Source of the DNA: Streptomyces albireticuli
GTDB taxonomy: Bacteria > Actinomycetota > Actinomycetes > Streptomycetales > Streptomycetaceae
Direction of reading: 5' to 3'
Length of the DNA stretch: 64,000 nt
NCBI RefSeq assembly: GCF_002192455.1
Contig: NZ_CP021744.1
Location: 4,060,001 to 4,124,000 of the forward strand
Positions 1 to 30,780 of the stretch are shown here, in pieces. A model generated the notes under the pieces. That model made no database searches. It saw nothing but the letters and a program-made list of their open reading frames with translations, and was not told the DNA's origin. The number at the start of each line of letters is the position of its first letter. The first letter of the stretch is position 1. Made by a program: the position numbers and the translations under genes.

Positions 1-383
1 GGCAGCCCGGCATCGTCGGCGTGCCCACCGAGGGTCCGTCCGCGCCGCAGCCGTCCGCGAAGAGCACCGACCTGGAGTTCGCGGACAAGACCCGCGCCAC
101 GGCCGAGGAGTTCTTCACCAAGTACGCCGCCGGCGAGCCGGGCTCGGTCGCCGCGCCGGGCGTCTCCATCCCGGCGCTGCCGCAGGGCATGACGCTGGGC
201 GCGCTGCGCACCTGGACGGTCGAGGACGGCTCCGGCACGGACCGTACCGGTACGGCCGTGGTCACCTGGCAGGTCGGCGGCGCCGAACTGGAGCAGACCT
301 ACCGGGTCAAGCTGACCCGGGTGTCCTCGGCCAAGGCCGAGCGCTGGCAGGTCGCGGAGGTCCACGGGGGACTGGCGCCCTGA
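1..383 (+). CDS. TcpC-like conjugal transfer protein, 5'-truncated
   Basis: The reading frame is open from base 3 to the TGA at 381-383, so the gene starts upstream of the window. The visible ~126 residues form an NTF2-like beta-rich domain ending in the pattern 'ERWQVAEVHGGLAP', typical of the extracytoplasmic C-terminal part of TcpC (a VirB8-like scaffold of Gram-positive type IV secretion). The assignment rests mainly on context: it is followed by TcpD-, TcpE- and VirB4/TcpF-like genes in the order known from clostridial Tcp conjugation loci. The membrane anchor and N-terminal domain cannot be seen. Another NTF2-like accessory protein is the alternative. Confidence 0.6.
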   Translation, partial: QPGIVGVPTEGPSAPQPSAKSTDLEFADKTRATAEEFFTKYAAGEPGSVAAPGVSIPALPQGMTLGALRTWTVEDGSGTDRTGTAVVTWQVGGAELEQTYRVKLTRVSSAKAERWQVAEVHGGLAP

Positions 384-463
384 GGCGCCGGGGCGGTCAC
401 GCCCGCACCCACCGACCGGAGTCCGCGGGCCCGCCCGCACGTATTCACAACTAGGGGAAACTG

Positions 464-697
464 ATGGAAATCGCCCTGAGCAGCGGCGCCGAACTCAAGT
501 CATGGGTGTTCCTGATCGCCGGGAACATCTTTCTCATCATCCTGGCGGTCAGGGCCATCGGGCACTACGCGAAGCGTGAATGGGGCGAGCTGCTCGGCCA
601 CTTCCTCGCGGGCGTCGTCGTCGCGGGCTTCGTCTTCGCGCCGGACGAGTCCAAGGACATGCTGATAGCCGTGTGGAAAAAAGTGGCGGGGGAATGA
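464..697 (+). CDS. TcpD-like small membrane protein
   Basis: A 77-residue protein with two hydrophobic segments (about residues 12-29 and 44-62) separated by a short charged stretch (YAKREWGE). The start ATG at 464 follows AGGGGAAACTG, a usable ribosome site. Size, topology and position between TcpC- and TcpE-like genes match the small TcpD-type membrane component of Gram-positive type IV secretion loci. Its molecular role is not visible in the sequence; a channel or pilin-like (VirB2/VirB3) role is inference. The stop codon overlaps the next start as ATGA, implying translational coupling. Confidence 0.6.
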   Translation: MEIALSSGAELKSWVFLIAGNIFLIILAVRAIGHYAKREWGELLGHFLAGVVVAGFVFAPDESKDMLIAVWKKVAGE

Positions 698-1290
698 GGG
701 TCGGCCACACCTTCACCCGCCACTTCGACCTGGAGACCCGGCAGCACGAGCTGTTCGGCATGGACCTGGGCGAAGGCCCCTCCCGGCGGGTCCTGGTGAC
801 CGGCGCGGCGCTCTACACGGTGTGGGTGGGCGGGTTGCTGCTGATCCTCGGCGTGCCGACCCAGCTGCTCTTCACCTTCTACTTCGCGCCGCCCGCGCTG
901 ATCACCTACTACGGCGCCCAGCGCTCGCGGCGTAACGAACGGCGCTGGAACCTCACCCGGTGGGCCCTGGTGATCCGCTATCTGACGGTCGGCCACCGCC
1001 CGATCGTCAACGGCGGCCGGCGCGCCGCCGACCGCAGCGAGTGGCTGCCCCTGCGGGCCCGCCTGGGCGAGCGGTCGGAGGCCTTCCTGGACCTCCCCGG
1101 CATGGGCGTCTTCGAGGGCGCCCTCGGCGGCGAGGAGCCGAAGCCCACCGCCGGCCGCCCGGCGAAGCTGGACTCCCGCCCCCGGCTCTACGGGCCCGAC
1201 CACGTCTACCGCGCCCGGATGCGCACCCGGTCCGGCCGCCGTGCCGAGGCCTCACCGGCCGGCGCCGACGCCAAGAAAGGCACGCGATGA
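694..1290 (+). CDS. TcpE-like membrane protein of a type IV secretion operon
   Basis: The start is the ATG at 694, which overlaps the previous stop as ATGA; this gives 198 residues. A hydrophobic hairpin lies at about residues 30-73 (two segments separated by a short turn), followed by a basic stretch (RRNERRWNLTRWALV) and a soluble C-terminal region. This layout, with aromatic/basic residues straight after the hairpin, fits the TcpE family (PrgI/VirB3-like), which in conjugation systems sits in the membrane next to the VirB4 ATPase. The gene again overlaps the downstream ATPase gene by 4 nt. Family assignment is by length, topology and neighbours. Confidence 0.62.
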   Translation: MRVGHTFTRHFDLETRQHELFGMDLGEGPSRRVLVTGAALYTVWVGGLLLILGVPTQLLFTFYFAPPALITYYGAQRSRRNERRWNLTRWALVIRYLTVGHRPIVNGGRRAADRSEWLPLRARLGERSEAFLDLPGMGVFEGALGGEEPKPTAGRPAKLDSRPRLYGPDHVYRARMRTRSGRRAEASPAGADAKKGTR

Positions 1291-3854
1291 AGATCGCCAA
1301 GGGCATCGCCAAATTCCTCGGCGTCAGCGGGGACCGCTCCGCGCCGCCGCCGCGTTACGTCGCCCTCGCCGACGGCCTGATCATCACGGAGACGCACGCC
1401 GAGGCGTGGTTCGTGCTGGCCAGCTCCAACACCGACCTGATGTCGGAGAGCGCCCGGGACTCCGAGCACGACCAGGCGAGCAGCGCCCTGGCCCGTACCC
1501 TCGCCGGCTACGACTGCCACCTCAAGGTGCTGTGGTCGCCGCTGAACGCGGAGGAGTACCGCACCGAGGCGGAGACCCTCTTCTCGGCGGGCGACTACGC
1601 CTCCTGGGCCGCCCTGCGCGTGGACCGGCTCGACGAGCTGGAGCTGCCCAGCCGGCTGCTGCTGCTCGGCGTGCGGATCTCGGAGCGTTCCAACCAGGCC
1701 CAGGCGCGTGGCCGCCGCGGCGTGCAGGAAGCCCTCGGCATCGGCTCGACCTCGGTCTCCCAGAAGGAGCTCGCCCGCCTCGACGCCCTCACCCGGCGGC
1801 TCGGCCGGCAGCTGGAGACCACTCCGTGGAAGGCCCAGCCGGCCGCCGTGGAGATGCTGGCCTGGATGATCGCCCGGGAGCAGCGGCGCGGCGCGGTGCT
1901 GCCCACCCCGAACGGCGAGGGCATGATCACGGGTGCCCGGCTCGCCCACCTCACCCGTGGCCGGGTGCTGCCCTACCCCGACCACGTGCGCGTCCTCGAC
2001 CAGCGCGGCGAGACCACCGGCTGGACCGCCGTCCTCACCATGGACGGTTTCCCGGAGGAGATGGAGTCGCCCGGCGCCGGCGAGTGGCTGCGCGCGGTCG
2101 CCGAGATCACGTACGTCCCCGACTACGTGGACGACGAGAACGACGCGGACATCCAGATCAAGCCGGTCAACCCCGAGCCGTCCGTCCGCTTCAAGGTCCT
2201 CCACAAGCGCGACGCGCTCAAGCAGATCGACGAGGTCCGCCGGCTGGCGAAGGAGCAGCGGCAGAGCGCCGCCAAGCACTCCGCCGGCGAGACCGCGCAG
2301 GAGATCGAGGAGACCGAGGAGACGATGACGTCCCTCTCGCGCGACATGAAGCGCGAGGATGTCACGCTCATGGAGGACCACCCGCGCCTGATCGTCAGCA
2401 GCGACGTCTCGCTGGACGACCTGCGCAGCCGCTGCGACGCCGTCATCGGCTACTACGGCGGCCTCGGCATCGAGGTCAGCGTGGCCGCCGAGGAGCAGCG
2501 CGAGCTGTGGCTGGAGTCCCAGCCCGGCGACATGCTGCGCGTGCCCGACCTGGTGCACACCCGCACGGTCGGCGCGTTCGCCGGCTCCTGGTTCTGGGGC
2601 GGCGCGGCCGTGGGCGACGACACGGGCCCGGTCATCGGCTATCTCACCGGCTCCACGCCGGGCGTCGTGCGCAACGACCTGACGGGCGGCTCGGAGCGCG
2701 GCGACGCGACGACGACCGCCTTCATCGGGCGCAGCGGCCGCGGCAAGACGACGGCGATGATGCTGTCGCTCCTGGACTCCGCCTTCCGCGGCTCCTTCGT
2801 GCTCGCCCTGGACTTCAAGGGCGACATGGGCGGCCTGGTGTCGGCGGGCCGGCGGTACGGGCTCAACGCCCATCTGATCGAGACGGGCGCCCAGTTCGCG
2901 GGCGTCGCCGACCTCTTCGCCCTGCTCAGCGGCGAGAGCGCGGAGCGCGCGCAGACGGAGGTGCCGGCCCAGCTGGGCATCGCGCTGCCGCAGCACCTGC
3001 GGATGCGCGGCGCGGAGACGCCGATCCAGAGCGCGGTCAACGAGGTCATCGCCGAGGGCGACCCGGCCACCTGGAAGGTCATCGAGCACCTCCGTCGGTC
3101 GGAGGACGAGCTCACCCGCGAGGCCGGTGACGCGCTGTACGAGCTGTCGCTGACGGGTCTCGGCGCGCCCTTCATGGGCCGGCCGCGGGGTGGTTCGCTG
3201 CTCACGCCGTCGCCGGGCATGTGGGTCGTGCAGGTCCCGGGCATCACCCTGCCGTCGCCGGACGACGACCGCGACGACTGGTCGGTGCACCAGCGGCTGT
3301 CGGTCGCGCTCGTCCACTCGCTGCTCGCGTACGGCATCAGCATGGCGGGCCGGAAGGACCTGCGGGGCCTGCGGAAGGTCGTCGCGGTGCCCGAGGTGCA
3401 CGTCCTCACGGCGACCCGCGAGGGCAGCTCGTTCCTCCAGTACATCGCGCGCGTCGGCCGCGCGCTGCACACCGCGCTGGTCGTCGACACCCAGGACCCG
3501 GAGTCGCTGGCGAGCCTCACGGGTCTGGTGGAGCAGATGACGACCGTCTTCGGCTTCCAGCTGACGACGGCCGAGCAGCAGGACGCGATGGCGGCCCTGC
3601 TGGACCTGCCCCGCGGCCCGCACACCCGGCAGCTGATCCAGGCGATCGGCGTCGATGTGACGCAGGAGATCCGGCACGGTCACTGCATCATGCGCGACCG
3701 GCGGTTCAGCAGCGCGACCGTGCAGTTCGACGTGCCCTCGGTGGAGCTGCTGCACCTGCTGAGCACGACGCCGAAGACCGGGGAAGCCGCCGCGGCGTCC
3801 CCGGTGTCCGTGGCCGAACCGGCCGGGTCCGAACCTCAGGGGGTAGGCGCATGA
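1287..3854 (+). CDS. VirB4/TcpF-like type IV secretion ATPase
   Basis: An 855-residue cytoplasmic ATPase, the energy component expected for a Tcp/VirB4-type machine. The start ATG at 1287 overlaps the TcpE-like stop. The N-terminal ~450 residues are a VirB4-like accessory domain. Walker A is GRSGRGKT at residues 481-488, followed by a strand ending LDFKGDMGG. The Walker B strand is VVAVPE at 698-703: the glutamate is present but the usual preceding aspartate is proline. A further helicase-like strand (TALVVDTQDPESL) follows, as in VirB4/HerA ATPases. The size is normal for VirB4. An FtsK-like coupling protein is the less likely alternative, since no gamma domain or TM segments are seen. Confidence 0.8.
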   Translation: MKIAKGIAKFLGVSGDRSAPPPRYVALADGLIITETHAEAWFVLASSNTDLMSESARDSEHDQASSALARTLAGYDCHLKVLWSPLNAEEYRTEAETLFSAGDYASWAALRVDRLDELELPSRLLLLGVRISERSNQAQARGRRGVQEALGIGSTSVSQKELARLDALTRRLGRQLETTPWKAQPAAVEMLAWMIAREQRRGAVLPTPNGEGMITGARLAHLTRGRVLPYPDHVRVLDQRGETTGWTAVLTMDGFPEEMESPGAGEWLRAVAEITYVPDYVDDENDADIQIKPVNPEPSVRFKVLHKRDALKQIDEVRRLAKEQRQSAAKHSAGETAQEIEETEETMTSLSRDMKREDVTLMEDHPRLIVSSDVSLDDLRSRCDAVIGYYGGLGIEVSVAAEEQRELWLESQPGDMLRVPDLVHTRTVGAFAGSWFWGGAAVGDDTGPVIGYLTGSTPGVVRNDLTGGSERGDATTTAFIGRSGRGKTTAMMLSLLDSAFRGSFVLALDFKGDMGGLVSAGRRYGLNAHLIETGAQFAGVADLFALLSGESAERAQTEVPAQLGIALPQHLRMRGAETPIQSAVNEVIAEGDPATWKVIEHLRRSEDELTREAGDALYELSLTGLGAPFMGRPRGGSLLTPSPGMWVVQVPGITLPSPDDDRDDWSVHQRLSVALVHSLLAYGISMAGRKDLRGLRKVVAVPEVHVLTATREGSSFLQYIARVGRALHTALVVDTQDPESLASLTGLVEQMTTVFGFQLTTAEQQDAMAALLDLPRGPHTRQLIQAIGVDVTQEIRHGHCIMRDRRFSSATVQFDVPSVELLHLLSTTPKTGEAAAASPVSVAEPAGSEPQGVGA

Positions 3855-4462
3855 AGCGTGCGGGAACGGTGGCCGTGACGGCGGCGGCGCTCGCGGCGGT
3901 GCTGGCGGTCGGCGGTTGCTCGTCCGGCGGCGGGCCGGGGGAGGACCCCAAGGTCAGCGCGGAGCGGGCGGCGAAGGAGAAGGCCGAGCGCGAGCGCGAG
4001 GAGAAGGCCGAGCGGGAGGCCCGGGCCGAGCGCGAGCGGATCGAGAAGGACCGGGCCGCGATGACCGCGGTCGCGGTGAAGTTCCGCACGGCCGTGAACG
4101 CCCACGACGGGAGGACGGCCTGCCCGCTGAAGACGGTGGAGGGCCGGTACGGCGACTCCCTGGAGAAGTGCCACGACTTCTACAAGCCCCCGGGCGGCAG
4201 GAAGCCGGACACCGAGCAGCGCACCAAGGTGACCGTCACCGGCGGGCCCGTCACGGTGCCGCCGTTCGAGAACCACCCCGGCGGCACCGGGCTGATGGTC
4301 ACGCAGGAGACGCCCGGCGACGGCGGCCGGGTGCACGTCAAGCGGGACGCCCTGCGCATGGTCAAGGTCGACGGCGCATGGCTCGTCGACCAGGACAAGG
4401 AGGTCCTGGACTCCGAGATGTCGGACCCCAGCCCGGTCCGCAGCGCCCTGACGCGGCCGTGA
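3851..4462 (+). CDS. Secretion-operon lipoprotein with charged coiled coil and NTF2-like domain
   Basis: A 203-residue predicted lipoprotein. The start ATG at 3851 overlaps the ATPase stop by 4 nt. The signal peptide ends in the lipobox LAVGGC with the lipid-attachment cysteine at residue 23. Residues about 37-75 are an uninterrupted run of Glu/Lys/Arg/Ala (AEREREEKAEREARAERER), predicted as a long helix or coiled coil. The C-terminal ~125 residues (from AVKFRTAVNAHDG) look like an NTF2-fold domain with two cysteines that could form a disulfide. Co-transcription with the secretion genes suggests an outward-facing structural or wall-spanning part. The exact function is unknown. Confidence 0.7.
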   Translation: MKRAGTVAVTAAALAAVLAVGGCSSGGGPGEDPKVSAERAAKEKAEREREEKAEREARAERERIEKDRAAMTAVAVKFRTAVNAHDGRTACPLKTVEGRYGDSLEKCHDFYKPPGGRKPDTEQRTKVTVTGGPVTVPPFENHPGGTGLMVTQETPGDGGRVHVKRDALRMVKVDGAWLVDQDKEVLDSEMSDPSPVRSALTRP

Positions 4463-4475
4463 GGGAGGTCCTGGC

Positions 4476-6533
4476 ATGAGGCTCCCCCGTTTCCGGAATC
4501 TGGCGATTCCGATCGTCGGCGCGCTCACCACGGTGATGGTGACGGCGACCGCCGCCGCGGCCGACGACAAGGACGCGTTCAGCCCGGCGGGCATCGGCAA
4601 CATGCTGCCGGTGCCCGAGTCCAGCTACTCCGGGACGGGGACGCTGTACGAGCAGTACGGCAATCCGAACCTCTGGCGGCTGGACAGCGAGCTGGGCTGG
4701 AAGGACGTCGCCGACAGCATGCTCAACGGCATCGCCGTCATCTTCATGGGCCTGACCGTCGTGCTCGGCCTGGCCGCGATCGTCGTCGTCCAGTGGTCCT
4801 TCAAGTTCACCAAGATCGACAAGCTGGGCGAGTCCATAGCCGGCGCCGTCTCCGGCGCCTCGGAGGCGGTGGTGGCCACCCTGCTGCCCACGGCGCTGGC
4901 CGTGGGCGTGCTGGTGGCCTGGATCAATCACCGTAAGGCCAACGGCTCGGCCTTGAACCAACTCGGCTGGGTCCTCGCCTCAGGGGTCCTGGCCGCGTCG
5001 TTGCTGACGACGCCCAAGACCTGGGTCGACGGCATCGAGTCGACCCGCACCATCGGCAGCACGGTGGCCATGGAGGCGACGAGCGCGGGGCTGGGCGAGG
5101 GCGGCAAGGAGCCGATCGACGTCGGACAGCCCAGCTACAAGGGCAACAGCACCCAGGACTCGGTGCTCCGCAAGTCCTCCGACGCGATCTGGCGCTCGTA
5201 CGTCGCCACCCCCTGGTGCATCGCCGAGTTCGGCAGCCTGGACGCCTGCAAGGAGTTCGGCAAGGACCTGCTGGACAAGGGCTCCGACTCCAAGGCGCGC
5301 AAGGACTGGCTGAGCGAGAACGTCGACGGCAAGCCCGAGAACGGCGGCGAGGCCACGCTGCGCTGGCGCCAGGGGCACACGCCCGAGGGCCGCATCATGG
5401 TCGCGATCCCCGCGTTCATCTGCGTGGCCCTCTTCGCCGCGCTGGCGATCGCCCTGGCCTTCGCCTCCCTGGCCTCGCTGATCGGCGCGTTCATGCTGCT
5501 GATCGCCGGAGTGGTCTTCGCCTGTCTGTGGGTGATCCCCGGCAGGCCCCGGCAGTGGGGCGTGCGCTGGTTCGACACGCTCCTGGGCTTCACCCTCCAG
5601 TCGCTGGTCAGCACGATGGTGCTGGGCTGTGTGCTGATCATGAATACGGTGAGCGTCCGGCTGCTCGACGACTTCGGGTGGTTCGCGGCCGCGGGCCTGA
5701 GCATCACCAGCGCCCTGGTGGCGTTCAAGTTCCGGACCATCATGGAGAGCATCGTCGGCGTGACCGGCGCCATGAGCGGCGGGATCGGGTCCATCGCCGC
5801 GCGCGGCGCCGGCCGGGTCGCCAAGCTCGGCGCCCGGACACTGGGCAGGGGCGTGGACTCCCTCACCAAGGAGCGCTCCCCGAAGCCCCGGCACTGGGAC
5901 CCGAACACCACCCGGGGCGACACGGGCAGGTCCTCCGACGCCGGTGCCACCCTGTCCCGGCTGCCGAAGCGCCCGCTGCCCCTGCCCACCACCCGGCAGG
6001 GCGGCGCGGGGCCGGTGGGCGAGGTCGTCGCGGCGGCCGCCAAGGCCGAGCTGGCGGCGGGTGCCAAGCGGCCCGACATGGCTCCGACGGCCACCCTCAC
6101 CCGGGTGCGCCCGGAGACGGCGGGGGGTGCCCTGCCCGCCCGCCGGACGGCCGAGCTGGGCAGCCTGCGGCCGCGTCCGGCGCTGTCCGCCGGGAGCACC
6201 GGGAGCGGCAGGACCACGCGGCCCTCGACCGGCCCCAAGGCGGCCGAGAAGCAGGCCGACAAGGTGGTCAAGGAAGCCAAGCAGGCCGCCAAGCAGCCCG
6301 CGGGCCGTCCCTCGGCGGCCCTGCGCCCCGAGAGCGGCTCCGGTGCGAGCTACGCGTTCCGCCAGGGCCCGCGGCCGGGCTCGGCGGCGCCGCGCGTCAT
6401 CCGGGGCGAGGTCGTCAGCCGCAGCACGATTCCGGCCGGCGGCGGCTCGCGGACCGCGCGGCCCAGCCAGCGGAAACGTTCCGTCGAACGCAGTTCGCCC
6501 GTGACCGGGCGCCGGCGCAGGGATGAGCGGTGA
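4476..6533 (+). CDS. VirB6/TcpH-like polytopic membrane protein
   Basis: A 685-residue protein starting at ATG 4476 with GGGAGG upstream. An N-terminal hydrophobic segment ends in ATAAAADD and resembles a cleavable signal. About seven or eight membrane segments follow between residues ~80 and ~435, including a long hydrophobic pair around IMVAIPAFICVALF and FMLLIAGVVFACLWVI. A periplasm-side loop of ~130 residues lies between the third and fourth segments. The last ~240 residues are basic, Pro/Ala/Arg-rich and probably disordered and cytoplasmic. This matches TcpH/VirB6-like (TrbL-type) channel proteins. In conjugative systems this protein forms the inner-membrane channel with VirB4 and VirB3. 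Confidence 0.72.
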   Translation: MRLPRFRNLAIPIVGALTTVMVTATAAAADDKDAFSPAGIGNMLPVPESSYSGTGTLYEQYGNPNLWRLDSELGWKDVADSMLNGIAVIFMGLTVVLGLAAIVVVQWSFKFTKIDKLGESIAGAVSGASEAVVATLLPTALAVGVLVAWINHRKANGSALNQLGWVLASGVLAASLLTTPKTWVDGIESTRTIGSTVAMEATSAGLGEGGKEPIDVGQPSYKGNSTQDSVLRKSSDAIWRSYVATPWCIAEFGSLDACKEFGKDLLDKGSDSKARKDWLSENVDGKPENGGEATLRWRQGHTPEGRIMVAIPAFICVALFAALAIALAFASLASLIGAFMLLIAGVVFACLWVIPGRPRQWGVRWFDTLLGFTLQSLVSTMVLGCVLIMNTVSVRLLDDFGWFAAAGLSITSALVAFKFRTIMESIVGVTGAMSGGIGSIAARGAGRVAKLGARTLGRGVDSLTKERSPKPRHWDPNTTRGDTGRSSDAGATLSRLPKRPLPLPTTRQGGAGPVGEVVAAAAKAELAAGAKRPDMAPTATLTRVRPETAGGALPARRTAELGSLRPRPALSAGSTGSGRTTRPSTGPKAAEKQADKVVKEAKQAAKQPAGRPSAALRPESGSGASYAFRQGPRPGSAAPRVIRGEVVSRSTIPAGGGSRTARPSQRKRSVERSSPVTGRRRRDER

Positions 6534-7327
6534 CGAAGAAGGCGAAGCAGGGGCAGCAGCCCGGCACCCCGGCCGAATGGCGGGAGCTCCTCAAGAACGG
6601 CTACGAGTACCCGGAGGAGATCGAGGCGCTGAACAAGCGCCGGGTGCGGCGGCGCGTCCGTAAGGCGTACCGGCAGGAGCGGCGCGAGGAGGTCCGGCGG
6701 CAGCTGGCGGAGGAGCGCCGCCGCGAGCCGGTCACACCGGGCGGCGCGATCGTGGTGATCGTCGGCATCCTGGCGATCGGCGCGGCGGTCTCCCACTGGT
6801 GGCCGGACCGCGGCGGCGCCCCGGCGACCGTGGTCCGCGCGGGCTCCGGCGACCGTACGGAGGAACCCGCGGCCGCCGGCACCCCCGCCGCGCCCCCCAC
6901 GCCCTCGGCACCGGCCTCGCCGGCGCCTACGGCGGACCTCAGCACGCCCGAGCGGACGGCCGAGGGGTGGGCCCGCGCGTACCTCGCACGCAACCCGCCC
7001 GTCGACAAGAAGCACACGGCCTCGGTCAAGCGCGCCGCCCCCTGGATGACGGAGACGCTGACCGAGAACCTGACGCGGTCCGAGGACAAGGCGTGGGGCC
7101 GGCTGGTCTCCAACGGCGGCGTCTCCACGGTGAAGCGCGTCTCCGTCGCGGCCTCCGACGACGAGCGGACCCGGCTCCAGGCCGACACCCCGGCGAGGGT
7201 GTGGCGCAAGGTCACCGCGGACGTCGACGTCGCCGGCTACACGAAGTACAGCGAGAACACGGTCCTCCTGGCCGAGATCGTGCGCAGCGGCGGCTCCTGG
7301 CGCGTGAGCAAGGTCCTGGGGGTCTGA
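6530..7327 (+). CDS. Single-span membrane protein with NTF2/VirB8-like extracytoplasmic domain
   Basis: A 265-residue protein starting at GTG 6530, which overlaps the TcpH-like stop as GTGA. The first ~70 residues are strongly basic and helical (RRVRRRVRKAYRQERREE). One membrane helix (GGAIVVIVGILAIGAAVS) follows at about residues 73-90, then an Ala/Pro linker and a C-terminal ~125-residue domain beginning RTAEGWARAYL and ending GSWRVSKVLGV. That domain looks like the NTF2 fold of VirB8/TcpC proteins. It is thus a second scaffold-like subunit besides the truncated first gene. Function is inferred from topology and operon position. Confidence 0.6.
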   Translation: MTKKAKQGQQPGTPAEWRELLKNGYEYPEEIEALNKRRVRRRVRKAYRQERREEVRRQLAEERRREPVTPGGAIVVIVGILAIGAAVSHWWPDRGGAPATVVRAGSGDRTEEPAAAGTPAAPPTPSAPASPAPTADLSTPERTAEGWARAYLARNPPVDKKHTASVKRAAPWMTETLTENLTRSEDKAWGRLVSNGGVSTVKRVSVAASDDERTRLQADTPARVWRKVTADVDVAGYTKYSENTVLLAEIVRSGGSWRVSKVLGV

Positions 7328-7331
7328 GCCG

Positions 7332-8564
7332 GTGGATTCACGTCAGGTCATGGCCCTGGCGGCGGGTGCCGCGCGCCGGGGCCTGGCGATCAAGGTCGGC
7401 CTGCCGCTCGGGGCGGCGCTCATGGCCTTCCTCATCCTGGTCGGCATGATGGCCGGCTTCGGCGGCGGGAGCGCCTCCGCGGCGGGCTGTGAGCAGCCCG
7501 GCCTGCCCGCGGACGACGGGGAGTACGGCAACGGGCAGTCCGGCGGGGACGCGCGGGGCGGCGCGGACAAGGAGCTCCGGTCCCGCCAGGTCGCCCACGC
7601 CAAGATCATCGACGAGGTGGCCAAGGAGGGGAAGCTGCCCGGCCGGGCCACGCTCATCGCGCTGATGACCGGCCTCGCGGAGTCGCAGCTGGAGAACCTC
7701 AAGGGCGGCGACCGGGACTCGGTCGGCATCTTCCAGCAGCGCCCCTCGACGGGCTGGGGCACCCCGGCGCAGATCAACGACATCAAGTACGCGACCCGCA
7801 TGTTCCTCTTCGGCGGCGACAGCGGCGACCCGCCCGGGCTGACCGACATCTCTTGGGAGAGCCTGTCCCTGAACGACGCCGCCCAGAAGGTGCAGCGGTC
7901 CGGCTTCCCCAACGCCTACGGGCCGAAGGAGACCCAGGCCCGCAGCATCGCCAAGGAAGCCGGCATCGACCTGGACCGGGCCGGTGAGAACCACCCCGGG
8001 CAGCCGGGCAGGAACGGCTCCAACGGCGGTGGCGGCGACCGTAAGGACGACGGCAAGGGGAACAACGACCCCGACGAGCCGCAGGACTGCGAGCAGCAGG
8101 GCTCCGGGAAGCCGGGCAAGCCCGGCGAGCCCTTCCACGACGGCAACGCCGGCTGGCCGAACGGGGTCAAGAACCCGCTCTCGACCGCCGACGCGATCCG
8201 TAAGGCGCGCGCCGAGGCCGACAGCCACCGGTCGCAGTGGTACCAGAAGTGCCTCGCCTTCACCTCGATCATGTACGGCTGGAGCTTCTCCGGCACGAAC
8301 TACGCCATCGACCACTACCAGGTGGAGATGCCGAAGGACATGCGGCACGACGGCGACCGCAACCCGCCCCCCGGCGCCCTGATGTTCTGGGACACCGGGC
8401 ACCGGGCCGGGCACGTCGCCATCTACCTCGGCGACGGAAAGATCGCGTCCAACGACATCGTGACGCCGGGCGAGATCTCGGTCGTCCCGGCCACCGACAT
8501 CGAGACCAAGTGGAGCGCGAAGTACCTGGGCTGGTCACCCCCCTACTACCCCAAGGGGGGCTGA
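7332..8564 (+). CDS. Membrane-anchored bifunctional cell-wall hydrolase (lysozyme-like plus NlpC/P60 or CHAP)
   Basis: A 410-residue protein starting at GTG 7332, 4 nt after the previous stop. A membrane anchor (about residues 25-48) precedes a lysozyme-like domain with a candidate catalytic glutamate, E117, in LMTGLAESQLENL, followed by GIFQQRP. A Gly/Asn/Asp-rich linker leads to a C-terminal papain-like domain with candidate C307 (QKCLAFTS) and H361 (GHVAIYLGDG). The same two-domain plan is found in TcpG-type hydrolases of Gram-positive type IV systems, which open peptidoglycan for the channel. The last core gene of the apparatus is therefore probably its wall-lytic enzyme. Confidence 0.78.
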   Translation: MDSRQVMALAAGAARRGLAIKVGLPLGAALMAFLILVGMMAGFGGGSASAAGCEQPGLPADDGEYGNGQSGGDARGGADKELRSRQVAHAKIIDEVAKEGKLPGRATLIALMTGLAESQLENLKGGDRDSVGIFQQRPSTGWGTPAQINDIKYATRMFLFGGDSGDPPGLTDISWESLSLNDAAQKVQRSGFPNAYGPKETQARSIAKEAGIDLDRAGENHPGQPGRNGSNGGGGDRKDDGKGNNDPDEPQDCEQQGSGKPGKPGEPFHDGNAGWPNGVKNPLSTADAIRKARAEADSHRSQWYQKCLAFTSIMYGWSFSGTNYAIDHYQVEMPKDMRHDGDRNPPPGALMFWDTGHRAGHVAIYLGDGKIASNDIVTPGEISVVPATDIETKWSAKYLGWSPPYYPKGG

Positions 8565-8662
8565 TCCGGGTCATCATTGCCGGGGACCGCGGCTCGCGCC
8601 GCCGCGGGCCCCGGCCGGCCGGCGGGAAACAGCGGTAAGTGGCGGTAAGTGAAGGATTGACC

Positions 8663-9682
8663 ATGCCTGTGGTGACGGACCCCGACTCGGTGCCCCTGAC
8701 GCCCGTGTACACCATCGTGATCAGCGCGGCGGGTGACGCGACCATCGAAGGGGAGCCGGTCGACCCGCTGCCCGGTCAGGACGCCCGCACCTCGGCGCTG
8801 GCGGACATCCGGGTGCGGGCGGCGCGGCGCGGTCACCCGATACGCATCAACGCCAAGGAGCCGGACGGCTCGGTGTGGCCGCTGATAGTCGACCACGACG
8901 GGGCGGTGACGCCGCTGGGGGCGCCGCACCCGGTGCCGGCGCCGGAGCCGGTGGAGCGGCCGGTACGAGCGGCGGAGCCCCTACGGGCCGAGGCGCCCAG
9001 GTACGCGGAGGCGCCCGTACGGGCCGAGGCACCCGGCTACCCGGAGGCGCCCGTACCGCCGCCGGGGCCGGCACCGGTCCCGGCCTTCGCGCCCGCCCCC
9101 GTGGCCCCCCTTGCCCCTGCCCCCGCCCCCGTGGCCCCGCCCGCCGCTGCCCCCGCGCCCATGGCGGAGCCCACCCCCGCCCCGCCCATATCCTTCGACG
9201 CTTCTGCCCCTTCAGCCCCTTCAGCCTTTTCCGTCCCTCCCGCCCCACCCGTCGCGCCGCCCAAGCCGCCCGCCGACTGGCACGCGCCCCTCCCCGCCCA
9301 CCACGCCCCCGTCTTCGCGCGCATCGTCGCGGCGGAGCTGCGCGGTGACCTGGCCGCCGCCGCGGTCGCGGCGAAGGAGCTGGAGGCGGCCGCCGACCGT
9401 GAGTACGGGCCGCTGCACCCGCACACCATCGGCGCGCTCGCCACACGCGCGTGGCTCGCGCTGCTCCTCCAGGACGACTGGGCCGCGGCCACCCGCCTCC
9501 ACCTGCGCACCGCTGAGCGCCGCGACACCGCCCGCGCCCCGCTGCCCGAGACGCTCAGGACGCTGCGCAACGCCCGCGCCGCCTGGCAGCGGCTCGCGGC
9601 CGCCGACAAGCTGGAGGCGGAGGACATCCGCCCGGAGCTGCTGCGCGTATCCGAGCTGATCGAGGGCGAGCGTCCGCAATAA
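8663..9682 (+). CDS. TPR-containing protein at the end of the secretion operon
   Basis: A 339-residue protein; ATG 8663 is preferred because GAAGGA lies 7 nt upstream, although an in-frame GTG at 8639 exists. The N-terminal ~85 residues form a compact domain starting MPVVTDPDSVPLTPVY. A long Pro/Ala-rich low-complexity linker (about residues 90-205) follows. The C-terminal ~130 residues are helical, and the pattern YGPLHPHTIGALATRAWLAL is typical of TPR_12-type repeats. It lies 98 nt after the hydrolase in the same direction, suggesting an adaptor role. A tandem GTAAGTGGC/GTAAGTGAA duplication just upstream is unusual. No catalytic motif is seen. Confidence 0.6.
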   Translation: MPVVTDPDSVPLTPVYTIVISAAGDATIEGEPVDPLPGQDARTSALADIRVRAARRGHPIRINAKEPDGSVWPLIVDHDGAVTPLGAPHPVPAPEPVERPVRAAEPLRAEAPRYAEAPVRAEAPGYPEAPVPPPGPAPVPAFAPAPVAPLAPAPAPVAPPAAAPAPMAEPTPAPPISFDASAPSAPSAFSVPPAPPVAPPKPPADWHAPLPAHHAPVFARIVAAELRGDLAAAAVAAKELEAAADREYGPLHPHTIGALATRAWLALLLQDDWAAATRLHLRTAERRDTARAPLPETLRTLRNARAAWQRLAAADKLEAEDIRPELLRVSELIEGERPQ

Positions 9683-9690
9683 TCGCGATC

Positions 9691-10458
9691 ATGCTGCCCG
9701 ACCCGCCCCCGCCCGCCCCGGAAGGGCCGCCCCCGCGGCCGCCGGCCGTCGTCCTGGAGATCCTCGCCGCCGGCGCGCCGTACTCCTTGCTCCTCTCCGG
9801 CGGTCTCGCGGTACGGGCGCACGGGCTGCTGCCGGCCGGCGGGCCCGACCGCGACCTGGAGTTCGTCACCGGCACGGACGCGCCCATGGCGGAGGTCGCG
9901 GACGCCCTCGGCGCCTGGCTGACCGGGCGCGGCCTGCGGGTCGGCGCGGTGGAGGCCGGCCCGCTCGCGGCGCGGCTCGTCGTGACGGACCCGGAGAGCG
10001 GCCTGGACCGCGCCGTCGACGTCCGTAAGGAGACGCTGTGGCGTCCGGCGGTGGAGAGCGCGTACGGGCCCGTACCGGCGGAGGAGGACGTCGTCGGCCT
10101 GGCGGTGCGCGCCCTCGCGGACCTGGGGCTCGCGGGCAGCCTCGTCGACGTACGGGCCGCGTCGGCGCGCTGGTCGCACGTGGAGCTGGAGGAGCTGGCC
10201 CGCCGTCACACGGTCGGCGCGCCCTTCGACCTCACCGACCTCCAGGCCCGCCTCGCCCGGTCGGAGTGGCTGGACGACGGCGAGTTCGCCGCGTACGGGC
10301 TGGACGACGGCGAGATCCAGGAACTCCGGCGCTGGGCGCAGGAATGGGTCGACGACATCGCCGAACGGCTCATCGAGGAAGCACCTTTCGAGGACCCGGA
10401 GACGGTGGCGGAGGCCACCGGCGAGACAACCGGGGAAACACCTGCCAAGGACGAGTGA
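9691..10458 (+). CDS. Nucleotidyltransferase-fold protein, AbiEii-like
   Basis: A 255-residue protein starting at ATG 9691, eight nt after the TPR gene. Residues ~33-55 contain LLLSGGLAVRAHGL followed by GGPDRDLEFVTG, which resembles the GG(T/L)AV..HG and DxD motifs of AbiEii/MNT-like nucleotidyltransferases. Here the metal-binding pair would be the D and E of RDLEF, a non-canonical spacing. A later DVRKETLW segment and an acidic helical C-terminus complete the protein. No AbiEi-like antitoxin gene is adjacent. The close spacing to genes on both sides places it in the same transcription unit. The activity, whether tRNA, protein or nucleotide modification, cannot be told. Confidence 0.5.
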   Translation: MLPDPPPPAPEGPPPRPPAVVLEILAAGAPYSLLLSGGLAVRAHGLLPAGGPDRDLEFVTGTDAPMAEVADALGAWLTGRGLRVGAVEAGPLAARLVVTDPESGLDRAVDVRKETLWRPAVESAYGPVPAEEDVVGLAVRALADLGLAGSLVDVRAASARWSHVELEELARRHTVGAPFDLTDLQARLARSEWLDDGEFAAYGLDDGEIQELRRWAQEWVDDIAERLIEEAPFEDPETVAEATGETTGETPAKDE

Positions 10459-10465
10459 GAACACC

Positions 10466-12256
10466 GTGAACCCCAAGTCGCCCGCGCACATAGCCAGGCA
10501 CTCCGTCGGGGAGTCCCGTGCCGCCGAGGCGGTCGAGGACTTCGCCTCGCGGATCGGCCGTCAGGTCGACCTGATGCAGCACAGCCCCGGCCGGGACACC
10601 TTCGGCTGGGAGATGATCGCCGAGGAGTTCCTCGACTACGTCGGCGCGCTGTCCCTCACCGACCCCGAGCTGCGCGGCAAGGACGCCGAGGCCGCCCTGC
10701 GGTCGGCGGGCGCGGCGGCCCTGGGCGTCGTCACCGTCGGCGTCTACCAGTGGGAGTCGGTCAACGTCTTCGTCGACTACGTCAACTTCGGCCTGACGTA
10801 CGGCCCCGCCGGCGACCCGGAGGTCTCCCTGGACGAGACCGACTGGCTCCGCGCCCTGGACCTCGCGGTGATCTGCGACCGCTACACCGCCGAGGCCGTG
10901 ACCTTCGGCGAGACCGCGCGGTACCTGCCCTCCGGCCCCGGGCACCCGCTGTGGGAGCGCGCGGCCACGGGCCAGGCGCACGGGATGCTCACCTACCTCC
11001 GCGGCTACGACCTCGACGAGGATTGGGACGGCGCCGAGCCGAGGACCCGCGCCGAGGCGGCCGGGCGGATCGACGCCCTCCTGTCCGAGCTCGCCGCCGA
11101 CGGGAACCGCAACCGCGCGCGCGTGGCCGGGCTCACGGCCGTACGCGCGCTCCTTACGGGCGACGAGAACGCCTTTGGCGCGGCCCTCGCCCGGCTGCTC
11201 ACCGCGCACCGCGACGTGGCGGGCGGCAGCGCGTCGCCGCGCGGCCTGCTGCCCCTCGACGCGATCGCCCTGGCCGCGCTGGCGCACCGGCGCGAGGGGT
11301 GGCCGCCGGCCGTCACCTCCGGCTATCTGCCGGCGGCGCTCGTCACCGGCGTCCGTACGGAGGGCCCGCGGGTCGGCCCGTACGGGCGGGACAAGCGCGA
11401 GGCCGCGCTGGCCGAGCTGGCCGCCGGGCCCGTCACGGTCGCCCGCCCGGCCTTCGCGTGGACGGACGAGCGGGACGACGGGGTCTACGACCGGCTCACG
11501 GACCGGAAGCTGGCGGAGTACGCGGACCCGGACGCCGACCCGCGGCTGATCGCCCGGATGCTGCCGAGCGGGGTCCGGCAGCAGGTCCTGCGCTTCCAGT
11601 GCCGGGCGGCCCACGACCCGGAGGGCACCGACCCCCGGCAGCGCGAGGCCCTCACCCTGGCCGCCGAACTGGGCGTGGCGGCCTGCGCGACCGGCGTGGC
11701 CGAGGACGGCGGGAGCGTCGAGGTGACGATCGGGGGCCGCACCCTGACACTGCCCCGGGTCGGGCCGCAGCCGGACAGGATGACCGGCGGGTGGACGTCC
11801 GCGGTGGGCGCCGCGCTCGTCGCCGGAGCGCGGGGACCGCTGGACCGGCTGCTCGCCGTGGACCCCGGCGCCTTCGGGGCCGCCGACGCGTCCTCCGTGA
11901 CGGCGGCCTACCGGGCCGCGCTCCACGACCACCTGCGCGGTGCCGACGCCCGTCCGGCCGTGGACCGCGCCCTCGCGGCCCGCGAGCGGGCGCTCGGCCG
12001 GGACTCCGACGACCTCTGCCCGCCCGTCGTGCTGCTCTCGCAACTGGTCGCCGGGGACGCCGAGGGGTTCGCGCTCGCGCTCGTCGACGCGCTGGAGGAG
12101 CACCGCGACCACTACGGCGTCGGCTCCCGGGCCGAGGGCGTGGACGCGGCGGCCGGCCTGGACGTCCTCGCGCTGGCCTGCCGGGCCCGCGCGGTGGGCA
12201 TGCCGGTACCGGTCCGCTCGCCCTATCTGCCGGAGGCGCTCCTCGCCCTTCACTGA
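10466..12256 (+). CDS. Tandem-duplicated Imm49-type immunity family protein
   Basis: A 596-residue protein starting at GTG 10466, seven nt after the nucleotidyltransferase-like gene. It is built of two related halves. The motif (T/A)GDxxxFxxAL followed by HR(D) and a LPLDAIALAALA or LDVLALACRA helix, then (G/S)YLP(A/E)AL, occurs at residues ~229-296 and again at ~527-594. The two GD aspartates are D233 and D531, exactly 298 residues apart, half the protein length. This C-terminal signature is that of Imm49 proteins, predicted immunity proteins of polymorphic toxin systems. No signal peptide is seen, so it is cytoplasmic. The cognate toxin is not evident in the window. Confidence 0.7.
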   Translation: MNPKSPAHIARHSVGESRAAEAVEDFASRIGRQVDLMQHSPGRDTFGWEMIAEEFLDYVGALSLTDPELRGKDAEAALRSAGAAALGVVTVGVYQWESVNVFVDYVNFGLTYGPAGDPEVSLDETDWLRALDLAVICDRYTAEAVTFGETARYLPSGPGHPLWERAATGQAHGMLTYLRGYDLDEDWDGAEPRTRAEAAGRIDALLSELAADGNRNRARVAGLTAVRALLTGDENAFGAALARLLTAHRDVAGGSASPRGLLPLDAIALAALAHRREGWPPAVTSGYLPAALVTGVRTEGPRVGPYGRDKREAALAELAAGPVTVARPAFAWTDERDDGVYDRLTDRKLAEYADPDADPRLIARMLPSGVRQQVLRFQCRAAHDPEGTDPRQREALTLAAELGVAACATGVAEDGGSVEVTIGGRTLTLPRVGPQPDRMTGGWTSAVGAALVAGARGPLDRLLAVDPGAFGAADASSVTAAYRAALHDHLRGADARPAVDRALAARERALGRDSDDLCPPVVLLSQLVAGDAEGFALALVDALEEHRDHYGVGSRAEGVDAAAGLDVLALACRARAVGMPVPVRSPYLPEALLALH

Positions 12257-18647: not shown

Positions 18648-18721
18648 TGGAGCGGGTGACGAGAATCGAACTCGCGCTCTGAGCTTGGGAAGCTCATGTT
18701 CTACCATTAAACTACACCCGC
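18648..18721 (-). tRNA. tRNA-Gly (anticodon CCC)
   Basis: On the minus strand a complete cloverleaf can be folded. The acceptor stem GCGGGTG pairs with CACCCGC, and the D-arm is GTTTAATGGTAGAAC. The anticodon stem is TGAGC/GCTCA with loop TTCCCAA (anticodon CCC, reading GGG), and the T-arm is GCGAG-TTCGATT-CTCGT. The discriminator base is T and CCA is encoded. The length is 74 nt including CCA. No tRNA-directed integration footprint is seen next to it. Confidence 0.95.
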
Positions 18722-29287: not shown

Positions 29288-29451
29288 CGCGTTTTCCGCC
29301 CCGGCGGGCCAGGGGAGTTGACGGCCTGTCACCCGAGTGGGTGGCGTGCCCGCCCCTGACCTCGGGCAGACCGTACCGTGGGTACCAGGGTCATGATCGT
29401 GCGGTTCACTTGCACGGAAGGGTCCTGATCGCCGTGGGGAAGGTGACGCGG

Positions 29452-30780
29452 GTGCTCCTGAGCTTCCGAGTGTCGAACCACCGGTCCATCAGAGAGGAAC
29501 AGCAGCTGCTCCTCTCGCCCGTCCAGGAGACGGCACCGGGCTCCGCCGACGGCACCTCCACGCCCCCCTCCGCCGTGCCCGTCGCGGCGCTCTTCGGTGC
29601 CAACGCCGCCGGGAAGTCGAACGTCGTCGACGCCCTGCACTTCATGGCGGGCCTGGTGCACAGCTCCCACCGCGACGCCGAGCCCGGCGGCGGCCTCGTC
29701 CGCTCCCCGTTCCTGCTGGACGAGCGGAGCGCCTCCGCCCCGTCCTGGTACGTGGTCGACCTCGTCCTCGGCGGTGTCCGCCACACCTACGGCTTCGGCG
29801 TCGACGACGAGCGGGTCCTCGACGAGTGGCTGTACAGCTACCCCGACGGCACCCGGCGCACGGTCTTCCAGCGGTCCGGCGACGAGATCGACTTCGGCGA
29901 GGGCGCGCCCAAGGCCGAGCTGGAGCTCGTCCGCAGCATCACCGAGCCGAACGTCCTGTTCCTGACGGTCGCGGCCCGGTCCCGGCAGGCGCTCCTCCAG
30001 CCGGTGTACGCCTGGTTCCGGGCGGTCCGCTTCCGCGCGGGCGGCGCGCACGGCTCCCCCGACCCGGGCAGCCTGCGCCGCTTGCAGGACCCCGCGCGCG
30101 CGGCCTCCGTCGTGGCCCTGTTGCAGGCCGCCGACCTGGGCATCGAGGACATGGGCGTCGAGGACTTCGAGGCGGACGGCGCCGACCGGGTCTCGGCCCT
30201 CACCTTCCGCGAGCGGCTGATGCGCGAGCTCAGGCGCACCGAGCTCTCCACGTTCCTCTTCACCACCACGACCGCCCGCGTGTGGGTGCAGCAGAGGGCG
30301 CGCGACGGCAGCAGCGCGCGCCTGGGCCTGGAGGACCAGTCCCAGGGCACCCGCATGCTCTTCGACTACGCCGGCCCCGTCCTCGACGCCCTGGAACAGG
30401 GCAGCATGCTGATCGTCGACGAGGTCGACGCCAGCCTCCACCCCCGGCTGACGGCCCAGGTCATCCGCCTCTTCCAGAGCCCCGCGGCCAACCCTCGCGG
30501 CGCCCAGCTCCTGCTGACGACCCACGACGTGAGCCTCCTCGGCCGCAGCGCCGGCGAGGAGATCCTCCGGCGGGACCAGATCTGGTTCGTCGAGAAGGAC
30601 CGCCACGGCGAGACCACGCTCTTCCCCCTCTCGGACTTCACCCCCCGCCAAGCGGAGAACCGCGAGCGGCGGTACCTCGGCGGGAGTTATGGTGCGGTCC
30701 CGGTCCTCAGTGACGAGCGGTTCGAGGCGGCGCTGGCCGCCAGGGGGAGAACAGTGGATGGCGAGGACGCCGAAACTTAG
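29452..30780 (+). CDS. OLD/RloA-like AAA (ABC-type) ATPase of a two-gene module
   Basis: A 442-residue ATPase. GTG 29452 is chosen because the usual family N-terminus (LLSFRVSNHRSIREEQQL) begins there, with GGGGAAGGTG upstream. Walker A is GANAAGKS at residues 49-56. The signature-like QSQGTRMLFDYA precedes Walker B MLIVDEVDASLHP with D323/E324, and a switch histidine follows in LLLTTHDVSLL. This is the AAA15/OLD ATPase class seen in defence modules such as RloA, AriA of PARIS and retron effectors. It ends 23 nt inside the RloB-like gene, so the two are coupled. Location, right after the heat-shock operon, suggests an inserted accessory pair. Confidence 0.85.
   Translation: MLLSFRVSNHRSIREEQQLLLSPVQETAPGSADGTSTPPSAVPVAALFGANAAGKSNVVDALHFMAGLVHSSHRDAEPGGGLVRSPFLLDERSASAPSWYVVDLVLGGVRHTYGFGVDDERVLDEWLYSYPDGTRRTVFQRSGDEIDFGEGAPKAELELVRSITEPNVLFLTVAARSRQALLQPVYAWFRAVRFRAGGAHGSPDPGSLRRLQDPARAASVVALLQAADLGIEDMGVEDFEADGADRVSALTFRERLMRELRRTELSTFLFTTTTARVWVQQRARDGSSARLGLEDQSQGTRMLFDYAGPVLDALEQGSMLIVDEVDASLHPRLTAQVIRLFQSPAANPRGAQLLLTTHDVSLLGRSAGEEILRRDQIWFVEKDRHGETTLFPLSDFTPRQAENRERRYLGGSYGAVPVLSDERFEAALAARGRTVDGEDAET

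Follow-up and report, generated by a model that had tools for sequence, protein, structure and literature searches.

A chromosomal Tcp-type secretion locus of Streptomyces albireticuli with candidate alarmone-synthetase effector and immunity genes

Type IV secretion systems (T4SSs) that inject effectors are established in diderm bacteria, and the Gram-positive systems in the literature that we searched transfer DNA. All effector-delivering T4SSs found in that literature belong to Gram-negatives, and it held no demonstrated example from a Gram-positive organism. Here we describe a locus on the chromosome of Streptomyces albireticuli, studied in bases 4,060,001-4,124,000 of a single 8.14 Mb contig (the window, 64,000 nucleotides), whose left edge truncates an operon for a Tcp-type T4SS. 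Upstream of that edge the operon carries genes for a VirD4-type coupling ATPase, an accessory protein (A), two alarmone-synthetase-like proteins (T1 and T2) and a candidate immunity protein (D). We propose that a domesticated T4SS delivers toxic alarmone-synthetase effectors to which D would confer immunity, with delivery, toxicity and immunity as predicted functions, and we give this reading a probability of about 0.62.

Several described systems resemble parts of this locus. The Tcp system of pCW3 and its relatives on actinobacterial plasmids have TcpC, VirB4/TcpF, TcpH-like and TcpG-like proteins in common with it, whereas the locus has a VirD4/TraG-type instead of a TcpA/FtsK-type ATPase, toxin/immunity-like cassettes and no relaxase of the families tested. 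The antibacterial X-T4SS of Xanthomonas, Stenotrophomonas and Lysobacter is likewise VirD4-dependent, with toxin-immunity pairs and effectors that have a conserved C-terminal part, but it is a Gram-negative VirB1-11 machine whose effectors and signal are unrelated. The cmdABCDEF operon of S. coelicolor is also a chromosomal membrane-ATPase operon that resembles a plasmid transfer region (PMC2782261). It differs in having six genes, in its occurrence in S. coelicolor, S. lividans and S. avermitilis, and in its developmental phenotype.

The putative effectors also have known relatives. The RelA/SpoT domain was recognized in 2012 both among polymorphic toxins and within XopAD (PMC3482391), and the exported alarmone synthetases SaEAS and AaEAS, with which T1 and T2 share fold and catalytic motif, are toxic in the cytoplasm (PMC12691689). 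SaEAS, by contrast, carries a Sec signal and lacks an immunity gene. In polymorphic toxins with RelA/SpoT domains associated with the type VII secretion system (T7SS) (PMC3482391, PMC12691689), the T domain is again followed by a D-like gene (loci L024 and L028), but these toxins are C-terminal fusions delivered by WXG/T7SS; putative immunity genes beside T7SS-linked homologues have been described (Ahmad et al., 2025, PMC12691689). One sentence of that paper states that an S. albireticuli EAS homologue (cluster A) co-occurs with TrwB, TrwK and TrwI, which most likely refers to the locus studied here because L038, another carrier found below, is S. albireticuli. The published account lacks the Tcp type, VirD4 (here in place of an FtsK-like ATPase), the D candidate immunity family, the conserved tail of T2, the cassette exchange and the distribution, all of which are new here.

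The initial annotation, made from the window, had reported nine + strand genes mostly joined by 4-nt overlaps and no coupling ATPase, and it had proposed extending the sequence upstream. We added 30 kb 5' of the window as L005, in which position x+15000 corresponds to window position x, and called genes from codon-position G+C. This extension revealed VirD4, A, T1, D and T2, so that the alarmone-synthetase/D cassettes had been missed as lying outside the window; the coupling ATPase gene, which belongs to this chain, starts 6.3 kb 5' of the window and had escaped notice because the window edge cuts the operon. Gene order from VirD4 through A, T1, D, T2 and TcpC to TcpG is continuous and entirely on the + strand, with VirD4, A, T1, D and T2 chained by 1-4-nt overlaps and the tcpC start 162 bp 3' of T2. 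The run ends at 9682, nine of its genes ending between 383 and 9682. The reported strand thus stands, while 4-nt overlaps are confined within the window to TcpD/TcpE (694-697), TcpE/VirB4 (1287-1290), VirB4/lipoprotein (3851-3854) and TcpH/anchor (6530-6533), the other joints being gaps of 4-80 bp.

XopAD has an alarmone-synthetase-like C-terminal part that is matched by both T1 (3.9e-23) and T2 (5.6e-25), and a profile of these two proteins matches SaEAS of S. albidoflavus (PDB 8vx3) at 9e-27. An AlphaFold model of T2 (pLDDT 79) has about 260 ordered residues followed by a disordered linker, and in Foldseek it aligns to 8vx3 with a TM score of 0.83 by target length. We accordingly place both proteins in the exported-alarmone-synthetase family, with alarmone synthesis and export as predicted activities. 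Residues K70, D98, Y141 and E158, which we take to be the RelA/SpoT catalytic positions, are intact in all T2 proteins examined. D98 coincides with the SaEAS active-site Asp named in PMC12691689. Beyond a variable linker (conservation 0.10-0.45), T2 terminates in a basic stretch of 12 residues with a conservation of 0.72, and this tail is absent from orphan relatives. Signals for T4SSs usually lie at the C-terminal end of the protein. A further copy of D, 62% identical to D itself, forms the C-terminal part of gene A, and relatives of D lie directly 3' of T-domain genes in two T7SS-type loci (L024 and L028), one of them with a WXG pair. A search of D against PDB folds gave nothing under E 0.1, and D is therefore a candidate immunity family with no match to a known PDB fold. 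Besides T1 and T2, the genome has a third alarmone-synthetase-like gene, an orphan near 6.84 Mb (L033:9657-10487, reverse complement) that resembles the Sec-type exported enzymes.

The behaviour of these genes among strains carries much of the argument. Correlations between identity matrices, which cover eight genomes, are high for D-T2 (r = 0.87) and within VirD4-A-T1 (r 0.84-0.92) and low for T1-D (0.22, with genes that overlap by one base), T1-T2 (0.10) and T2-VirB4 (0.15). These comparisons give two linkage blocks, VirD4-A-T1 and D-T2, and because D and T2 co-vary yet are decoupled from the adjacent T1 and from VirB4, D-T2 moves as an exchangeable pair; adjacency alone is insufficient to explain the pattern. 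Between S. hiroshimensis and S. roseoverticillatus VirB4 is 96% identical and T2 is 50% identical. 'Streptosporangium' nondiastaticum is a mosaic, whose second D-T2 pair shares 96/90% identity with the S. roseoverticillatus pair, and the latter species also retains an orphan D; in total, extra D-T2 pairs occur in two species and an orphan D in one. Synonymous divergence is highest at D-T2 in several pairs (S. roseoverticillatus-S. klenkii, 0.51-0.70 vs 0.10-0.11 for VirD4/VirB4). Exchange, duplication and synonymous peaks of this kind are marks that point to toxin-immunity cassettes. The ratio of nonsynonymous to synonymous substitution (dN/dS) is 0.1-0.5 in every gene tested, including T1 and D, and the block is therefore maintained.

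This allelic pattern bears on a reading in which the T4SS exports alarmone synthetases to the medium or to sibling hyphae as a self or kin signal, the alarmones regulate germination or development, and D is a cytoplasmic inhibitor that acts before export. Some secreted alarmone synthetases of Streptomyces lack an immunity gene and spore germination responds to exogenous (p)ppApp (PMC12691689), deletion of cmdABCDEF disturbs sporulation in S. coelicolor and three cmd genes resemble SLP2 transfer genes (PMC2782261), and the block is mostly limited to one morphological group. Exchange and duplication of D-T2 alleles with an orphan D left behind are nevertheless the pattern of effector-immunity conflict, unlike a stable signal, and we consider the signalling role unlikely.

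VirB4 is present in 13 of the 392 other Streptomyces genomes sampled (about 3%), and the system is therefore not a general feature of the genus. Orthology with cmdABCDEF, a candidate identity for the locus, was dropped in view of this rarity, direct sequence comparison being no part of the basis. Two kinds of VirB4 relatives can be distinguished. Those of the first kind (53-69% identical) are found mainly on small contigs of plasmid-like appearance, some of which have ParA-like genes, and carry none of the T/D cargo. The product of their gene 5' of tcpC is a P-loop protein that matches FtsK/HerA weakly; its top PDB match is likewise weak (E 0.23) and is named a 'DNA translocase coupling protein', which we take to be TcpA. 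Those of the second kind (89-97% identical) are chromosomal and have VirD4-A-T1-D-T2 5' of tcpC.

A D-profile scan of named genomes located the second kind, and a check of synteny across Streptomyces, also proposed in the initial annotation, thus found a block that recurs in ten others within a genus where VirB4 is scarce. The carriers are S. eurocidicus, S. albireticuli (L038), S. olivoreticuli, S. roseoverticillatus, S. klenkii, S. mashuensis, S. hiroshimensis, 'Streptosporangium' nondiastaticum and two more strains, the named ones being largely verticillate species; the copy in L039 ends 5' of tcpC because its contig ends there. In S. ficellus the block is rearranged, with VirD4, the N-terminal region of A, D and T2 as separate genes divergent from tcpC-virB4, and in a VirB4 tree the T2-bearing systems group together with S. 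ficellus as first branch (95/93). S. netropsis (L045:9377-11484) has a degenerating remnant in which VirD4 and the T4SS machine are lost, A is kept, and T and D are fused in one frame.

Other arrangements place the cassette beside different machinery. Actinomadura DC4 and Kribbella antibiotica (L049, L050) have VirD4-D-(D)-T plus zinc-ribbon or membrane proteins, with no Tcp core adjoining. D-T2 lies beside the VirD4 of another T4SS in genome G080 (L022) and beside a T4SS-like cluster in G264 (L023); both clusters have genes for an ATPase of about 500 amino acids (aa), a cell-wall hydrolase and a lipoprotein, and they may represent a second machine that uses the same effectors. No copy of the L023-cluster ATPase was found in the S. 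albireticuli genome. In a class-wide search with D, matches outside the genus were only to the N-terminal region of gene A. VirD4 accompanies the cassette in 13 of the 14 loci from the D search, S. netropsis being the exception. Toxin-immunity-like pairs are thus linked to VirD4 and a T4SS, and their members co-vary; we infer the roles of toxin and immunity.

Were the T-D pairs ordinary toxin-antitoxin or phage-defence modules of the toxSAS/CapRel type, as the activity of related toxSAS enzymes in both capacities might suggest (PMC12691689), they would stand beside the T4SS by chance. The near-constant company of VirD4, the position of the cassette beside an unrelated T4SS in L022 and the fusion of a D domain to the VirD4-linked gene A all speak against this, and we regard it as highly improbable. 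T/D as a phage-defence module was separately rejected on finding no PADLOC match.

The genes around the cassette encode a T4SS of the MPF_FA/Tcp type, comprising a VirB4-type ATPase, VirB8/TcpC and VirB6/TcpH-like subunits, a cell-wall hydrolase and a coupling ATPase, the last of the VirD4/TraG type and not the TcpA type. Among the Tcp labels of the initial annotation, family matches uphold four. VirB4/TcpF matches AAA_10 (3e-24), has the Walker A motif GRSGRGKT, and matches the NCBIfam TcpF model NF052333 at 3.4e-13, yet far under that model's own cut-off. TcpC is recognized by PF12642 in 6/6 homologues (best 5e-7), the S. albireticuli copy scoring 24.8 bits, just under the 27-bit cut-off. 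The TcpH-like protein matches NF046089 (4e-14), and the TcpG-like protein has an NlpC/P60 match at the family cut-off. The remaining labels derive from position and conservation: TcpD and TcpE have no match in Pfam or PDB searches, the 'TPR' protein has none in Pfam, and the second NTF2-like anchor has no family match, aligning to TcpC in hhalign with E 1.1e-4 across 37 columns. PDB searches with the TcpC, second-anchor, TcpE, TcpH and VirB4 profiles returned no informative structure.

The setting is chromosomal and stable, as had been proposed, at 4.06 Mb of the 8.14 Mb contig with dcd and dnaK/dnaJ nearby. The reported lack of a relaxase and integrase also held: TrwC (PF08751), Relaxase (PF03432), Replic_Relax (PF13814) and MobA_MobL (PF03389) are absent from the whole genome, in a search that did not extend to TcpM-type atypical relaxases, and no integrase occurs among the roughly 20 flanking genes tested, which are part of the flanks. 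An integrated element with att sites was considered and rejected, as the tRNA-Gly 3' end at 18648 is unrepeated and the long direct repeats look like dispersed intergenic repeats. Comparison with an empty site via the downstream methyltransferase was uninformative, that gene not being conserved in the sampled relatives.

The locus could still be a remnant or active conjugative element in which DNA is the substrate of the T4SS and T/D serve in addiction or entry exclusion, since VirB4 relatives lie mostly on plasmid-like contigs and the atypical relaxases of pCW3-type Tcp systems are missed by Pfam relaxase models. Against such an element, the same SDR gene stands 5' of the block in six other genomes (seven with S. 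albireticuli), integrase, duplicated tRNA-Gly end and the four relaxase families were absent from the sequences searched, and the FtsK-like ATPase of the plasmid type is replaced by VirD4; we judge it distinctly improbable. The initial suspicion, that protein or DNA is secreted between hyphae in place of classical conjugation, is supported for protein, with export as a predicted function.

We therefore return to effector delivery, a reading built on the observed gene content, order and conservation, the T2 fold and catalytic residues, and the missing relaxase families, and favoured because D-T2 is exchangeable, D relatives follow T-domain genes, the T2 tail is conserved and the block is under dN/dS 0.1-0.5. 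Further support comes from the position of D-T2 next to VirD4 in the other T4SS of L022 and in Actinomadura and Kribbella. A conjugative Tcp-type T4SS would have been domesticated on a verticillate Streptomyces chromosome as a protein-delivery machine, with T2, and T1 where still active, as alarmone-synthetase effectors. The VirD4-type ATPase, probably with gene A, would recruit them via a C-terminal signal, VirB4, TcpC/D/E and TcpH would form the channel, and TcpG would open the wall. Inside a recipient, whether hypha or cell, the enzyme would synthesize (p)ppApp or (p)ppGpp at the expense of ATP/GTP and arrest growth, and D, free and fused to A, would be the cognate immunity protein shielding the producer and its siblings. 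The wider claim, that a Gram-positive T4SS has become a dedicated effector weapon by keeping the Tcp channel, exchanging an FtsK-like DNA pump for a VirD4-type protein receptor and swapping polymorphic alarmone-synthetase/immunity cassettes between strains at one slot, we hold to be slightly better than an even chance.

Several points weigh against this proposal. We infer secretion, toxicity and neutralization of these proteins from their sequences, and the literature searched held no established antibacterial Gram-positive T4SS. The catalytic Tyr of T1 is replaced by His in S. klenkii, S. mashuensis and S. netropsis. D matches no known fold, leaving its mode of action that of a candidate immunity protein, and the T7SS-linked D relative has modest hhalign support (69% probability). 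To read the T2 tail as a signal for the T4SS is guesswork, and T2 of L022 is without it. Finally, plasmid-type relatives also have no canonical relaxase, among the families searched, on the T4SS contig, so that relaxase absence alone is no proof of protein export; these relatives may use an atypical relaxase. If the proposal is correct, the locus would show a monoderm conjugation machine turning into a weapon and would add the T4SS to the delivery routes of alarmone-synthetase toxins. It would let both the coupling-ATPase swap and the cargo cassette step be tested directly in Streptomyces.

Table 1. Features of the locus; positions are window coordinates unless prefixed L005.
Feature	Position	Strand	Basis
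VirD4/TraG-type coupling ATPase	L005:8749-10575	+	T4SS-DNA_transf 4.5e-35, PDB TrwB 1.9e-7
Gene A (accessory region plus domain D)	L005:10572-11768	+	D copy at C-terminus
T1	L005:11765-12448	+	XopAD part match, alarmone-synthetase profile
D	L005:12448-12939	+	co-varies with T2
T2	L005:12936-13967	+	PDB 8vx3 SaEAS match
TcpC/VirB8-like, 417 aa	1..383 (3' part only); start L005:14130 = window -870	+	PF12642
TcpD-like small membrane protein, 77 aa	464..697	+	position, conservation in relatives
TcpE-like membrane protein, 198 aa	694..1290	+	position, conservation
VirB4/TcpF ATPase, 855 aa	1287..3854	+	AAA_10, NF052333, Walker A
Lipoprotein, 203 aa, lipobox VGGC	3851..4462	+	sequence; found in most relatives
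TcpH/VirB6-like polytopic membrane protein, 685 aa	4476..6533	+	NF046089 4.1e-14
Second bitopic VirB8/NTF2-like anchor (tentative), 265 aa	6530..7327	+	hhalign to TcpC
TcpG-like cell-wall hydrolase, 410 aa	7332..8564	+	NlpC/P60 8.1e-5, endolysin PHROG matches
Conserved accessory protein, 347 aa, 'TPR-like' C-terminal half	8639..9682	+	also adjoins plasmid-type relatives

Next to the operon, the gene at 9691-10458 is conserved and looks like a nucleotidyltransferase (PDRDLEF, GGLAVRAHG) but has no Pfam match. In S. olivoreticuli (L040) its homologue and the methyltransferase lie 5' of VirD4 instead, and the block has therefore moved locally. Shortly after the operon, 10466-12256 encodes an Imm49-family immunity protein (596 aa, Pfam 1.9e-51), which in S. 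eurocidicus (L007) was not seen between operon and methyltransferase; L025 and L028 also have Imm49-like genes near their T-domain toxins. Further along the window, an AbiLi/AriA-like AAA gene at 29341-30780 (PADLOC 4.8e-90), a possible phage-defence gene, adjoins dnaK/dnaJ.

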